Source: a virus
Length of the DNA stretch: 21,621 bases
Virus record (IMG/VR): IMGVR_UViG_3300030090_001346
Location: 1 to 21,621 of that record
Direction: 5' to 3' (one strand)
Part shown: positions 9,449-16,916 of the stretch, one piece after another
Layout of the letters: every line of letters begins with the position of its first letter
Numbering within the stretch: the stretch's first letter is position 1
Position numbers and translations under genes: made by a program
Notes under the pieces: generated by a model
Database searches by the model: none
Told to the model about the DNA's origin: nothing
What the model saw: the letters and a program-made list of their open reading frames with translations, nothing else

Positions 9449-9980
9449 TTTTCATTTCTCTCATATGTTTCTTCATAATTTTCTGTGCTTTTTTTAAACC
9501 TAAATTATATCTGAATTTACTAACTTTGTCAACCATAGTTACACCTTGTGTGTGGTCATACTCGTGTTGAAACACTCTGCTCATATAACCATCAAATGAA
9601 CCCTCTTTCATTTCTCCATTTTCATCTTCAAATTTAGCAACTATTTTTCTAGGTCTCTTTATATTTAGAAACAAAAATGGATAGGTTAAACAACCCTCTT
9701 TCATTGTTATTAGTTCACTGCTTGTGCTGATTATCATAGGATTAAAACACGCCAACTTCATTCCACTCTCTAGACTAGGGTGATTACCTAATACAAAAAC
9801 ATTTAAATCATAACCTACTTGATTAGCAGTTAATCCTATACCACCAGATTTTGACATAAATTCAAACATTTTATCAGTCAATTCTTTTCTATCTTTAAAC
9901 CCATACTCTTCTAATTGAGAATCATCATACTTTGGTAGTGTTTTTTTTATTATTGGTGTTTCAGGTGCAACTAGTTTCAT
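9429..9980 (-). CDS. def: Peptide deformylase
   Basis: A 183-residue metallo-enzyme that removes the formyl group from the N-terminal methionine of new proteins. The three family motifs are present: GIGLTANQ at 47-54 (usual GxGLAAxQ), EGCLTYP at 95-101 with metal ligand C97, and HEYDH at 139-143 supplying two histidine ligands and the catalytic glutamate. The length is ordinary, with a Lys-rich tail after residue 155. Deformylases are frequent in marine T4-like phages, where they are thought to help process phage or host proteins. GGAGG precedes the ATG, which overlaps the gp46 stop by 4 nt. Co-transcription with gp55, gp47 and gp46 is expected. Confidence 0.95.
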   Translation of the reverse strand: MKLVAPETPIIKKTLPKYDDSQLEEYGFKDRKELTDKMFEFMSKSGGIGLTANQVGYDLNVFVLGNHPSLESGMKLACFNPMIISTSSELITMKEGCLTYPFLFLNIKRPRKIVAKFEDENGEMKEGSFDGYMSRVFQHEYDHTQGVTMVDKVSKFRYNLGLKKAQKIMKKHMREMKNAKKDN

Positions 9981-12321: not shown

Positions 12322-13364
12322 TCACTTACCTCATTATAAATGCTTTGAGCATACTTTTTTAATTTATTTTTATCTAAATCAGTTTCTATTTGGTCAATAT
12401 AATTTCTTAAAAATGTCAGAGTGTCCTCACTTTTTTCTACCACATCATCACTAACCGAAACGTGTATGTCTGTAATATCATCTATTATTTGTAAACTATG
12501 AACATCAATCTCACTGTACAATCTTTCTACAAATTTATTATACATTTCATCATCACTCTTATTTGTAATGAATAATTTTACAAAGCATTTATCAAATTTT
12601 GAAATATCATAGTTTGAATAGTTTACTTCTTTATCATTATATAAAATCTTTTTATGTATTCTATATGGATTTTCTACTCTTGTCAACTCTCTAGTGTTAG
12701 TATCAAATATATGAAAACCTTTAGGACATTTATAATCTGCCCAAGTTATTTCATACTGCGTACCTAAATAATATATCTGACCGTCATCAGACTTTTTATG
12801 AAAGTGACCAGATATAACTTTTTCAAATCTACTAAAGAAACTTTTCTCTAAACCTACATCTGAGAAATGTCCTTTATGCATCTCAAAACCTTTTACTTCT
12901 AAATGACCCATTGCTATTTCACACTTTGATGTTTCTATAGCACGATTTGATTTTTCTATATTGTCATCACAAATCCAAGGTAAAAAAAGAATATCTAAAC
13001 CATCAAATGAAACTGTATCTGGTTCTGTGTATACTTTAGAATTACCATTAATTCTTAAATTTTTGATTGCATTAACTTCATTTGTATTTTTAAAGTAAGT
13101 ATCGTGGTTACCTATAATAATATGTGTTTCAATATTATTTTTGTATAACTTACTCCAAAACTTTTTTCTAAAGTTATAAGCAGTATTATGGTTTATAAAT
13201 TTTCTTCTATCAACTACGTCACCCAAATGTATCAAGCATTTTATATTATTTTTTTCTAAATATGGAAAGAATATATCATCATAAAATTTGTTTTGATAAT
13301 CAATGAAAGCAGGTGAGTCGTTGCGACACCCAAAATGTGTGTCATTCAACAATGCTATTTTCAT
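12318..13364 (-). CDS. 47: Recombination endonuclease subunit gp47 (Mre11/SbcD-like)
   Basis: A 348-residue nuclease subunit (T4 gp47, 339 aa) that works with gp46. The N-terminal 210 residues hold the calcineurin-type phosphoesterase motifs in order: NDTHFG at 7-12, GDVVDRR near 48-54, IIGNHDTY near 83-90 and the paired-histidine SGHFHKK near 185-191, which together bind two metal ions. The C-terminal 130 residues are the variable capping and gp46-binding region. The start overlaps the gp55 stop by 4 nt. Complete. Confidence 0.95.
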   Translation of the reverse strand: MKIALLNDTHFGCRNDSPAFIDYQNKFYDDIFFPYLEKNNIKCLIHLGDVVDRRKFINHNTAYNFRKKFWSKLYKNNIETHIIIGNHDTYFKNTNEVNAIKNLRINGNSKVYTEPDTVSFDGLDILFLPWICDDNIEKSNRAIETSKCEIAMGHLEVKGFEMHKGHFSDVGLEKSFFSRFEKVISGHFHKKSDDGQIYYLGTQYEITWADYKCPKGFHIFDTNTRELTRVENPYRIHKKILYNDKEVNYSNYDISKFDKCFVKLFITNKSDDEMYNKFVERLYSEIDVHSLQIIDDITDIHVSVSDDVVEKSEDTLTFLRNYIDQIETDLDKNKLKKYAQSIYNEVSE

Positions 13365-13903
13365 ATAAATTCGTCTAACTTACCTTTTAAGTTTCTTCGT
13401 TGTTTTAGTTTCTTTTTTTTAACTTCTACTTTTTCTTCTTCGTTTGTATTGTTTTTTAAAAATTCTGTAAATTGATTTGTATATCTTGCATCATCATGTG
13501 GTTGTAATGCTAAATCATCAAAGTTAGAATCTCTTAACATTCTTTGTTTTATTTCAACTTGTTTTTTCTCTTTAGTTATTCTTCTAACAAAAGCATAGTA
13601 TATTATTTGTGTAAAATATGCAAATGGGTTTTTTGATTTCTCTGGGTCAAAATTGTCTAGATACTGTAAACAGTTTTCTATACCATCACTAATCATATCA
13701 TCTCTGTATGTGTAGTTAATAAAGTTAGGTCTGTAGGATAAGTGATTCGCTATTTTTAAAAAACAACCACCTATGTAATTAGACACTAGTGGTTTTTCTT
13801 TGTTATTTTTTTTAGCATCTTCACAGAGTATTTTGTACTCTCTCATTGCCTCTAAAAACTTAGAATTGTCTACATAATGTTCATTTTTTTTCTTCATTTT
13901 CAT
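13361..13903 (-). CDS. 55: Late-transcription sigma factor (gp55-like)
   Basis: A 180-residue homologue of T4 gp55 (185 aa), the divergent sigma subunit that directs host RNA polymerase to TATAAATA late promoters. The core resembles sigma region 2: LKIANHLSYRPNFINYTYRD, then MISDGIENCLQYLDNFDPEK (about 70-90), then NPFAYFTQIIYYAFVRRITKEKKQ, which recalls the promoter-melting helix. The C-terminus is a Lys-rich linker ending GKLDEFI, a hydrophobic-acidic tail of the kind that binds the gp45 clamp; that role is inference. There is no Shine-Dalgarno, and the -10 box of its promoter ends 7 nt before the ATG, so a leaderless mRNA is predicted. A second ATG two codons in is an alternative start. 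Three or four TATAAATA boxes in the window are its likely targets. Confidence 0.92.
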   Translation of the reverse strand: MKMKKKNEHYVDNSKFLEAMREYKILCEDAKKNNKEKPLVSNYIGGCFLKIANHLSYRPNFINYTYRDDMISDGIENCLQYLDNFDPEKSKNPFAYFTQIIYYAFVRRITKEKKQVEIKQRMLRDSNFDDLALQPHDDARYTNQFTEFLKNNTNEEEKVEVKKKKLKQRRNLKGKLDEFI

Positions 13904-13910
13904 AATCTCT

Positions 13911-13938
13911 AATATATCATTTTTTTAAAAAATGTCAA
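13911..13938 (-). promoter_or_regulatory. Sigma70-type promoter of the gp55-gp47-gp46 operon
   Basis: TTGACA (complement of 13933-13938), 16-nt spacer rich in A/T runs, TATATT (complement of 13911-13916). The -10 ends 7 nt before the gp55 ATG. It is the only promoter seen for the overlapping gene run down to 8073. Confidence 0.82.
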
Positions 13939-13953
13939 GCATCAAAAAGGGAC

Positions 13954-13981
13954 TTGACAAATAAATTAATTTCCTTATAAT
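13954..13981 (+). promoter_or_regulatory. Near-consensus promoter on the opposite strand
   Basis: TTGACA (13954-13959), 16-nt spacer, TATAAT (13976-13981): both hexamers are perfect. It points rightward, against every gene in the window, and reads antisense into the LSm-like gene and uvsW. Only a short 31-codon shadow frame follows, so the product would be an antisense or small RNA. Confidence 0.65.
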
Positions 13982-13995
13982 CGGGTATGTTCCCG
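13982..13995. repeat. Inverted repeat at the antisense promoter start
   Basis: CGGGTATGTTCCCG: perfect 4-bp arms around a 6-nt centre, GC-rich in a very AT-rich gap. It directly follows the -10 box of the rightward promoter, so it spans the expected start site. It may be an operator. On the minus strand it lies 15 nt after the stop of the LSm-like gene but lacks a T tract, so it is a poor terminator. Confidence 0.45.
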
Positions 13996-14009
13996 TTCAG
14001 TGATAGATA

Positions 14010-14423
14010 TTAATGTATGGTATCATCATCATCATAAAAATTAAATATTTCATTTATTCTTTTATTTTCTTCATCACTAAATTTTTCTCTAACATATTTA
14101 TTTTTATCTAATCTTTCTGGCGGTCTGTTATATTCTCTTTTAATATCATTATAACTTTTAATAACCTCAGCACAAGCATTTGTTATAGTTAAAATTTTAT
14201 CTTTAGGTATAGTTATTATTTTATCATCTGTATAACTTGCCCATTTTATTAATGCTACATAATCTTTAAAACCCATACTTGTCATTGAAGGAACATATTT
14301 AATTAGTAAAGGTCTATCTAATCTTAGTAAAGGAGATTTATCAGGTAATTGTTTTTCACCTTGTATCAATGAACATACGATATCTTCACCATTTGATAAT
14401 TTTATAACTTTTATATTACTCAT
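14010..14423 (-). CDS. Conserved hypothetical protein with LSm-like N-terminus
   Basis: A 137-residue protein of unknown function. The first 35 residues (IKVIKLSNGEDIVCSLI, followed by a strand with PLLRLDRPLLIKYV) look like the opening strands of an Sm/LSm barrel, a fold used by RNA-binding proteins such as Hfq. The match is by pattern only. Residues 43-80 continue as beta strands, and the C-terminal 50 residues are charged and probably helical, ending in an acidic YDDDDTIH tail. Similar proteins occur near uvsW in marine T4-like phages as far as I can recall. It overlaps the uvsW stop by 8 nt and is the last gene of the uvsY operon. RNA binding is a guess. Confidence 0.65.
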   Translation of the reverse strand: MSNIKVIKLSNGEDIVCSLIQGEKQLPDKSPLLRLDRPLLIKYVPSMTSMGFKDYVALIKWASYTDDKIITIPKDKILTITNACAEVIKSYNDIKREYNRPPERLDKNKYVREKFSDEENKRINEIFNFYDDDDTIH

Positions 14424-15888
14424 TTTTTATCTCAATTTTATGTGTTTCAAAATTAAATTTTTCTTCTTTGTATATATTTAGTCGTTCCCAAAAGTGTCTT
14501 AATGTGTAGTTAGGTATATCATTATACGTCATATCATCTGATATATCATATAAGGTAGCATCTGATTTATTGTCTTTTAATCGAAGTCCCCTACCGATAG
14601 ACTGTAAGTTTCTAATGCGTGACTTACTAGGTGAGGAAAAAACAATGTTATGCAAATTGCGAATATTAATGCCAGTAGAAAAAGTACCGTATGAGGCAAT
14701 AATGATTGCATTATCTGACTTTTCTGTAATTTGTCTAATGTATTCTCTTTCATCTGTATCTATACCTCCGTGTACATAAAATACTTTTTTATCTTTTGCT
14801 TTTTCGGCAATTAGTTCTCTTAAATCTTTACCGTGCTTTTCAACAAATTGAAATAAACATAAGGTATTACCTTTTAATGCTATACACAAATTTCTAATAT
14901 ATTTATTACGACCTTTGTGATTAACTAGATAATCCATTTCTTCTCTATAATCAAATCTACATTTGATATCTTTATGTTGTAATGTCAAACAAAATATTTT
15001 TAATTTTGCTAACTGATTTCTTTCTTGTAATATATTTGTAGATGTTACTTTATTAACTGAACCAAAGACACCCTCAAGAACTAATTTATGTGTTTTAGAA
15101 CCATCTAATGTACCTGTTAAACCAACTCTATATTTGCAGTTTTCTAATTTATTCATAATCTTAGTTAACGATACTGCTTTAAATAAGTGTGCCTCGTCAC
15201 CTATAATCATTCCAAACTGCTCGAACCACTTTTTTGGTTGTTGATAAATTGATTGCCACGTTGATATAACAACTCTTTTATTTGTATTTTTTGTATGTCC
15301 TTGATATATCTTATGTATATTTCTTAAACTATTATATCCATACTCTTTGAAGTCTTTGAACAATTGTTCTACTAAAGATGTTGTAGGAACAATGATTAAT
15401 ATTTTGTCAGACTTTTTATCTTTTAGATTTAAGAGATTATAAATTAATATCAGATAAATGATTAAAGATTTACCACTACCTGTTGGTGATAGAAGTAAAC
15501 ATCTTTTTTTCTGTATAGCATAATAAAATGCGTCTTTCTGATAATCTCTAATTTCGTGTGGTAATTTTAGTGCTGATAAAAATCTTTCTACTAATTTAGG
15601 TTTTATCTTTGCATCTTTAATTTTTGTACCATCAACAAACTGTACTTCATTCTTTTTACACCAATCAAGCAAATAAGGATACAATCCCACATAAATTTGA
15701 CCTGATGCATATTGAAACAGACGTATCTTACCATCCCATACTCTACTTCTATATTGAGGTGTGAATTTAAAACCGGGCATCTCAAAAGCAAAGTATTCAC
15801 TTAAATCTCTTTTGATTGCAGGTTCTGCCTCAACTTTAAGATAGACTTCATTTTTCTTTTCAATTACTATATATTTTGTTAAGACCAT
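14416..15888 (-). CDS. uvsW: UvsW recombination DNA/RNA helicase
   Basis: A 490-residue superfamily 2 helicase, homologue of T4 UvsW (about 500 aa), which remodels replication forks and branched DNA, unwinds R-loops and so shifts T4 from origin-dependent to recombination-dependent replication. Motifs in order: N-terminal DNA-contact domain (about 1-105, including PGFKFTPQYRSRVWDGKIRL), Q-like region IRDYQKDA at 113-120, Walker A SPTGSGKS at 134-141, motif Ia VPTTSLVEQ, DEAH box at 231-234, motif III LTGTL near 257, motif V TGINI and motif VI QSIGRGLR near the C-terminus. The start overlaps the upstream oxygenase by 10 nt with AGGTAAG before the ATG. Complete. Confidence 0.96.
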   Translation of the reverse strand: MVLTKYIVIEKKNEVYLKVEAEPAIKRDLSEYFAFEMPGFKFTPQYRSRVWDGKIRLFQYASGQIYVGLYPYLLDWCKKNEVQFVDGTKIKDAKIKPKLVERFLSALKLPHEIRDYQKDAFYYAIQKKRCLLLSPTGSGKSLIIYLILIYNLLNLKDKKSDKILIIVPTTSLVEQLFKDFKEYGYNSLRNIHKIYQGHTKNTNKRVVISTWQSIYQQPKKWFEQFGMIIGDEAHLFKAVSLTKIMNKLENCKYRVGLTGTLDGSKTHKLVLEGVFGSVNKVTSTNILQERNQLAKLKIFCLTLQHKDIKCRFDYREEMDYLVNHKGRNKYIRNLCIALKGNTLCLFQFVEKHGKDLRELIAEKAKDKKVFYVHGGIDTDEREYIRQITEKSDNAIIIASYGTFSTGINIRNLHNIVFSSPSKSRIRNLQSIGRGLRLKDNKSDATLYDISDDMTYNDIPNYTLRHFWERLNIYKEEKFNFETHKIEIKNE

Positions 15889-16888: not shown

Positions 16889-16916
16889 ATTATAACAAAA
16901 AAACTAGATTTGTCAA
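16889..16916 (-). promoter_or_regulatory. Sigma70-type promoter of the uvsY-uvsW operon
   Basis: TTGACA (complement of 16911-16916), 16-nt spacer, TATAAT (complement of 16889-16894). It starts 4 nt after the TAA stop of the tail gene. The leader is about 15 nt and contains an AAGGTGA ribosome site, unlike the leaderless units. Confidence 0.85.

Follow-up and report, generated by a model that had tools for sequence, protein, structure and literature searches.

A conserved host-type promoter opposite the Sm-like gene of marine T4-like phages, in helical phase with the gp55 promoter

The window analyzed here, a stretch of viral DNA of 21,621 nt (IMG/VR record IMGVR_UViG_3300030090_001346), is part of a T4-like marine phage; judged by its gp55 region, Pelagibacter phage Mosig is the closest relative with a name. 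Its minus strand codes in order for uvsY, a 2OG-Fe(II) oxygenase, uvsW, an Sm-like (LSm) gene and gp55, followed by recombination genes of the gp47/gp46 type (Table 1). All the named genes are on this strand and the plus-strand ORFs do not exceed 97 aa, in keeping with the initial annotation of this DNA, which had noticed a promoter on a plus strand devoid of genes. The Sm-like assignment is based on the match to PDB 3by7, which we take to display the Sm fold and to be the published cyanophage-type Sm-like protein, and on relatives annotated as Sm-like RNA-binding proteins. The C-terminus of the encoded protein (14010–14060, minus strand) is an acidic Asp-rich tail, DDDDTIH, arising from GAT repeats, and its relatives have similar acidic tails. 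Between the stop of the Sm-like gene (14010) and the start of gp55 (13903) lie two divergent sigma-70 promoters.

Table 1. Features at the junction of the Sm-like gene and gp55 (window coordinates)
Feature	Position	Strand	Basis
gp55 late sigma factor	13361..13903	-	phrog_234, E 6.6e-63
Divergent gp55 promoter, TTGACA-N16-TATATT	13911..13938	-	11/12, TG before -10; gp55-strand promoter at least 10/12 in 151/161 loci
Hairpin joining both -35 boxes, then a U run; in this subgroup, a possible LSm mRNA terminator	13927..13959	-	-9.2 kcal/mol, z -6.1
Sigma-70 promoter antisense to the LSm-like gene, TTGACA-N16-TATAAT	13954..13981	+	12/12; equivalent in 150/158 non-redundant LSm-bearing loci
Dyad CGGG-TATGTT-CCCG centered on the expected start	13982..13995	+	Arms co-vary between phages
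TGT core where transcription is expected to start, 6 nt past -10	13988..13990	+	TGT 5 or 6 nt past -10 in 138/144 loci
GTTCAG, conserved in the initially transcribed region, near where conservation stops	13995..14000	+	Column information, 150 loci
Sm-like gene (LSm, "methylamine utilization", DUF6561), putative target of the antisense promoter	14010..14423	-	phrog_471, E 2e-13; PDB 3by7, E 1.7e-8
uvsW helicase, next along the antisense direction	14416..15888	-	UvsW_N and helicase domains

The plus-strand promoter has perfect -35 (13954–13959) and -10 (13976–13981) boxes, separated by a distance within the 16–18 nt of a sigma-70 promoter, and its -35 is exactly 15 nt from that of the gp55 promoter (13938–13933, minus strand). 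Thus, the hexamers, coordinates, spacing and back-to-back arrangement given by the initial annotation all stand; its ranking of this promoter among the two best does not, there being three 12/12 matches in the window, with the others at 16916 and 9532, both on the minus strand. Neither of the latter (16889–16916 and 9504–9532) shows a start-site dyad with TGT, and the former sits just upstream of uvsY. On the gp55 strand, the two -35 boxes can pair in a stem of 8 bp with a U run after it. However, just 14 of 90 scored loci look terminator-like here (in a scoring to which gp55 promoters with an overlap from the far side were lost), and a conserved terminator was rejected as the general purpose of the paired boxes.

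Loci were drawn from one collection using three gp55 queries and one LSm query, to which named phages were added. The gp55-bearing loci, chosen by protein alone from three viral-contig scans and 18 named phages, comprised 258 usable loci (the window and one slice from it included) and were thinned by k-mer similarity, rather than by tree, to 161 non-redundant ones; loci found through a DNA pattern (L261–L380) were excluded from every conservation count. Upstream of gp55, the antisense strand has a promoter with at least 10/12 matches in 144 of the 161 loci, at least 11/12 in 114 and 12/12 in 41, with TGT playing no part in the choice of site. When the homologous regions are dinucleotide-shuffled, three sets yield corresponding values of 8–13, 0–2 and 0. 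For the gp55 strand, the same three thresholds are reached in 151, 123 and 40 loci. As the observed counts far exceed those from the shuffles, both divergent promoters are, by this measure, conserved across the gp55 loci. Conservation of the promoter and the repeat in relatives, which had been suggested as a check, is strong for both, and the hexamers have not been lost in close relatives, an outcome that would have spoken against the proposal. A chance promoter-like sequence in AT-rich DNA might be argued from the scan as a whole, which returns merely 119 sites against 94 expected; yet the 114 loci with at least 11/12 matches rule out a chance match, and the location at the LSm stop and the helical phasing described below further contradict it, leaving this reading with a negligible probability. 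Instead, we consider it highly likely that the promoter is functional and selected.

We then scored an element, defined as a promoter of at least 10/12 with a TGT 4–7 nt past the -10 and no more than 400 nt from the Sm-like stop, in the 158 loci with a detected Sm-like gene on the same strand. It is present in 150 of these, where the TGT lies on the opposite strand at a median of 25 nt beyond the LSm stop (interquartile range 20–29), the choice of site in this distance count, as in the arm test below, having favored or required TGT. The distance from gp55 to the antisense -35 ranges from 19 to 963 nt. In 20 loci the LSm–gp55 gap is wide (194–1031 nt): in 19 of them the element is beside the Sm-like stop, and in the twentieth (L234) a promoter is found there without the TGT. 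The gap, in those wide-gap loci whose sequence was inspected, usually holds an extra reading frame, with gp55 retaining its own promoter. Because the element stays at the LSm stop when extra sequence parts LSm from gp55, we assign it to LSm, and on this comparative evidence it belongs to that gene rather than to gp55 or uvsW. The initial annotation had raised, among other options, a control on uvsW timing or a switch through competition with gp55 transcription; a primary link to either gene finds no support, given the tethering to the LSm stop despite gaps of 190–1030 nt; its proposal of a transcript antisense to the LSm-like gene and then uvsW is borne out in orientation, with a plus-strand promoter facing minus-strand genes. 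With respect to a cis-antisense RNA, i.e., a transcript complementary to a gene, the orientation is right in the same 150 loci.

The junction between LSm and gp55 is also an insertion hot spot (L191, L200, L201, L207, L213, L216, L217, L225, L234, L241 and L250), with the inserts being differing small reading frames (82, 63, 99, 202 aa and others). In Mosig, a 111-nt hypothetical gene annotated in the intergenic region (Mosig_00030; L083 3495–3605) overlaps the element and is probably spurious. In an independent set selected by LSm, 43 of 44 distinct loci pass the element test, while the 44th (L439) has the dyad, an earlier TGT having misled the test. Among the eight LSm-bearing loci that fail it (L085, L097, L004, L135, L157, L195, L234 and L255), L097 and L004 carry a variant in which a dyad and TGT are visible, the TGT of L085 is accompanied by a weak -35, and L135, L157 and L255 have TGC in place of TGT. 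No Sm-like gene was detected in three of the 161 loci (L098, L138 and L204). Of these, Caulobacter phage Cr30 (L098) is without any phrog_471 match and without the element. In L204, no LSm-like gene was detected beside gp55; by eye, the neighboring ORFs resemble fatty-acid desaturases, and there is no convincing element.

The two promoters further show a constrained relative placement. Across 143 loci, 125 of them without a wide LSm–gp55 gap, the distance between the -35 boxes is most often -16, -7, 14, 24, 33–35, 44–46 or 55–57 nt. Counting each distance once per sequence cluster and scanning periods from 5 to 20 against 2000 jittered sets, the strongest period is 10.40 bp with finer clusters (33 clusters, 56 values; R 0.628, 0/2000 null) and 10.50 with coarser ones (9 clusters, 38 values; R 0.561, 0/2000 null), with R rising to 0.72 for finer clusters when only gp55 promoters of at least 11/12 are used. 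The control distances, from the antisense -35 to the gp55 start and from the gp55 -10 to the gp55 start, give no signal, and the distance from TGT to the LSm stop shows weak periodicity with finer clusters (17/2000) and none with coarser ones (445/2000). Given a spacing periodic at about 10.4 bp, i.e., one helical turn per step, the two -35 boxes keep to the same face of the DNA. Since polymerases on the two promoters would occupy overlapping DNA at most of these distances, competition or contact between them is a natural inference; hence, the earlier suggestion that this promoter competes with that of gp55 gains support, as coupling or competition. In several clusters (e.g., L083, L014 and L252), the spacer next to the antisense -35 contains a conserved stretch, CCGTGGAAT or TCCTGGAACC on the gp55 strand, which could be an activator site.

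This register, running from overlapping boxes (-16, -7) to boxes about 57 nt apart, and the conservation of the gp55 promoter itself might be taken to mean that the arrangement is primarily a device for gp55, with the reverse promoter competing with or supercoiling that of gp55 and the RNA being a by-product. We regard this as rather unlikely, as the reverse promoter remains with LSm across intervening sequence of up to about 1 kb.

The other distinctive part of the element is the dyad at its start, which the initial annotation had recognized as a CGGG-N6-CCCG repeat over the expected start and which is present as such (CGGG 13982–13985, CCCG 13992–13995, with a 6-nt center). Sigma-70 RNAs are expected to start about 7 nt downstream of the -10, and the start position used here is deduced from that spacing and the nearly fixed TGT. 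In the 150 loci, the columns are conserved from the -35 as far as roughly position 15 of the RNA, but not beyond. The dyad of the window taken singly is weak evidence; it is the matching of the arms across relatives that supplies the support. With one sequence per distinct left arm (44), the mean longest Watson–Crick run between the arms is 3.30, as compared to 2.33 ± 0.11 upon permutation (0/5000 permutations), and 55 of 71 distinct arm combinations form at least four Watson–Crick pairs, whereas 500 permutations average 19 and never exceed 28. The remaining mismatches are G–T in 11 cases and A–C in one, an imbalance reached in 0.4% of permutations (8.4% with a looser three-pair cut), which points to pairing of the transcript-sense strand. 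A hairpin of the opposite strand, at the 3′ end of the LSm mRNA, is disfavored both by these G–T mismatches falling on the antisense strand and by copies elsewhere retaining the promoter orientation. In folding predictions, an RNA beginning at 13979 forms the hairpin; one beginning at 13988 does not. Thus, if the start lies at the sigma-70 spacing, the left arm is outside the RNA. Considered as a stabilizing hairpin of a 5′ leader, the arms do pair and G–T mismatches do outnumber A–C ones, yet the left arm precedes the expected start. The dyad might be explained by transcription starting at an unusual position, by a hairpin that forms in the non-template strand once opened, by base pairing between that strand and the nascent RNA, or by an operator.

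Exact matches to the cyanophage-type pattern occur in at least 120 stretches of viral contigs. Among the 120 matches listed, 87 are antisense to an Sm-like gene, 19 precede a sense ORF, five are antisense to another ORF, two are beside gp55 without a detected Sm-like gene, two are neither and five are ambiguous. The sense targets include a gene annotated as CpeT in ACG-2014b and hypothetical genes in ACG-2014b and Melnitz. One copy, in Syn2 (L433; 158500–163000), begins within 840 nt that hold no annotated gene. TGT at the start is found in just 14 of the 140 strong promoters of six whole phage genomes, and a generic feature of all phage promoters is rejected on this count; likewise, a unique RNA gene is rejected because exact cyanophage-type copies also precede sense ORFs. 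These two observations together indicate that the element is a small promoter subclass, of which the antisense site at the Sm-like gene is, in this survey, the fixed member.

Copies within one genome resemble each other while their arms differ between genomes, as might be seen if the dyad were the operator of a phage repressor evolving with its site, the antisense output being one target among several. However, only a single clear copy is present in Mosig and in HTVC008M, and the excess of G–T over A–C mismatches fits pairing of a strand better than a duplex operator; we therefore deem this option improbable. Still less probable is that the promoter primes replication through an R-loop, as the T4 origin near uvsY does. 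It does lack a downstream gene of its own, it lies next to uvsW and uvsY, and its nascent RNA would be complementary to the non-template left arm, but copies elsewhere precede ordinary genes and the GC-skew minimum is about 12–39 kb away in six genomes (with Melnitz taken as circular). The cumulative skew extremes lie away from the element in all six, skew being a weak test of an origin.

Regarding the RNA itself, the codons at the 3′ end of LSm show no extra synonymous constraint, and there are no Rfam matches at gathering scores in the window, nor at E up to 1 in 13880–14430. A search for a terminator on the antisense strand found none except a weak one in HTVC008M. Hence, the regulatory RNA envisaged earlier finds no backing as a structured RNA beyond about the first 15 nt, the synonymous sites and Rfam offering no sign of one. 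The conserved transcript start (about 15 nt, GTTCAG-like) and the neighboring gene, with its match to the solved Sm-like protein 3by7, presumably of Sm fold, raise the prospect of a short RNA acting in trans, for instance as a ligand, client or decoy of the adjacent Sm-like protein. Set against the want of conserved sequence past about +15, of a conserved terminator and of an Rfam match, this seems unlikely to us, although less so than the operator.

Taken by sequence, selection is evident on the promoter, on its position at the LSm stop, on the start-centered dyad with co-varying arms and on the phasing with the gp55 promoter. Since nearly all the related ocean viruses examined retain it, this is very probably a working, hitherto undescribed control element. 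Accounting for its main job, our leading proposal, to which we accord slightly less than an even chance, is the cis-antisense control of the Sm-like gene through a predicted RNA, with the gp55 promoter mechanically coupled to it; perhaps uvsW is also controlled. We envisage that a host-type sigma-70 polymerase would start the antisense RNA about 25 nt beyond the Sm-like stop and read back through the gene toward uvsW. As long as host-type polymerase dominates, such transcription might repress LSm, and perhaps uvsW, via RNA pairing or polymerase collision. Polymerases at the antisense and gp55 promoters would share a face of the DNA, and the usual spacings would forbid their simultaneous binding. 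The block might then be relieved by a factor binding the start-site dyad or by the handover from sigma-70 to gp55. Counting against this proposal are the use of the same element to drive sense genes in cyanophages, the RNA body being free of extra synonymous constraint, the finding of no antisense-strand terminator other than the weak one in HTVC008M, and the 20 loci with an LSm–gp55 gap above 190 nt, by which tight coupling to gp55 is dispensable. More speculatively, and in our estimate probably too ambitious, most marine T4-like phages might possess a timing module, in which an Sm-like RNA-binding gene and its dedicated antisense promoter, with a co-evolving dyad and in helical register with the gp55 promoter, would let one segment choose between silencing of the Sm-like gene and uvsW and late transcription.

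Several known systems offer partial precedents. Divergent promoters, face-to-face or back-to-back, are known in which two sigma-70 promoters have adjacent or overlapping -35 boxes; here, one of the two is without a gene, and members of a phage family differ in the spacing by helical steps. In T4, the origin promoter ori(uvsY) lies near uvsW and uvsY, and replication is primed there through an R-loop; the present promoter shares that neighborhood but is antisense, of the host sigma-70 type and beside LSm, with no skew signal at the site. The middle genes of T4-like cyanophages reportedly have host-like sigma-70 promoters, comparable to this one in their perfect host-type -35 and -10 boxes; the present promoter differs in pointing against all genes and in its TGT, which so few strong promoters carry at their start. 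Our literature search returned no report of this promoter, although Doron 2016, said to deal with such middle-gene promoters, may already contain the start site unremarked. The site is not mentioned in the available portions of PMC5082946, PMC3037559 and PMC12753301, the last of which concerns other pelagiphages. A comparable case is cfrI of cyanophage S-PM2, an RNA running opposite psbA (Millard 2010, as cited in PMC5931967), which begins at the 3′ side of a gene of a T4-like marine phage, as the transcript predicted here would; it differs in the gene concerned, and the present case involves a promoter nearly universal in the loci examined and a start-centered, co-varying dyad. What look new are that dyad with its co-varying arms and nearly fixed TGT core, the end of conservation about 15 nt into the RNA and the -35 spacing in steps of about 10.4 bp.

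According to PMC5780444, marine T4-like cyanophages are without the T4 middle promoters and motA/asiA. With the MotA/AsiA middle system thus reported absent, a near-universal, unannotated promoter opposite the Sm-like gene and phase-locked to the gp55 promoter is a concrete, testable element for the question of how marine T4-like phages time genes around gp55. Its helical phasing across a phage family provides natural evidence suggesting an interaction of two divergent promoters, and the element would provide a regulatory context for the phage Sm-like protein.
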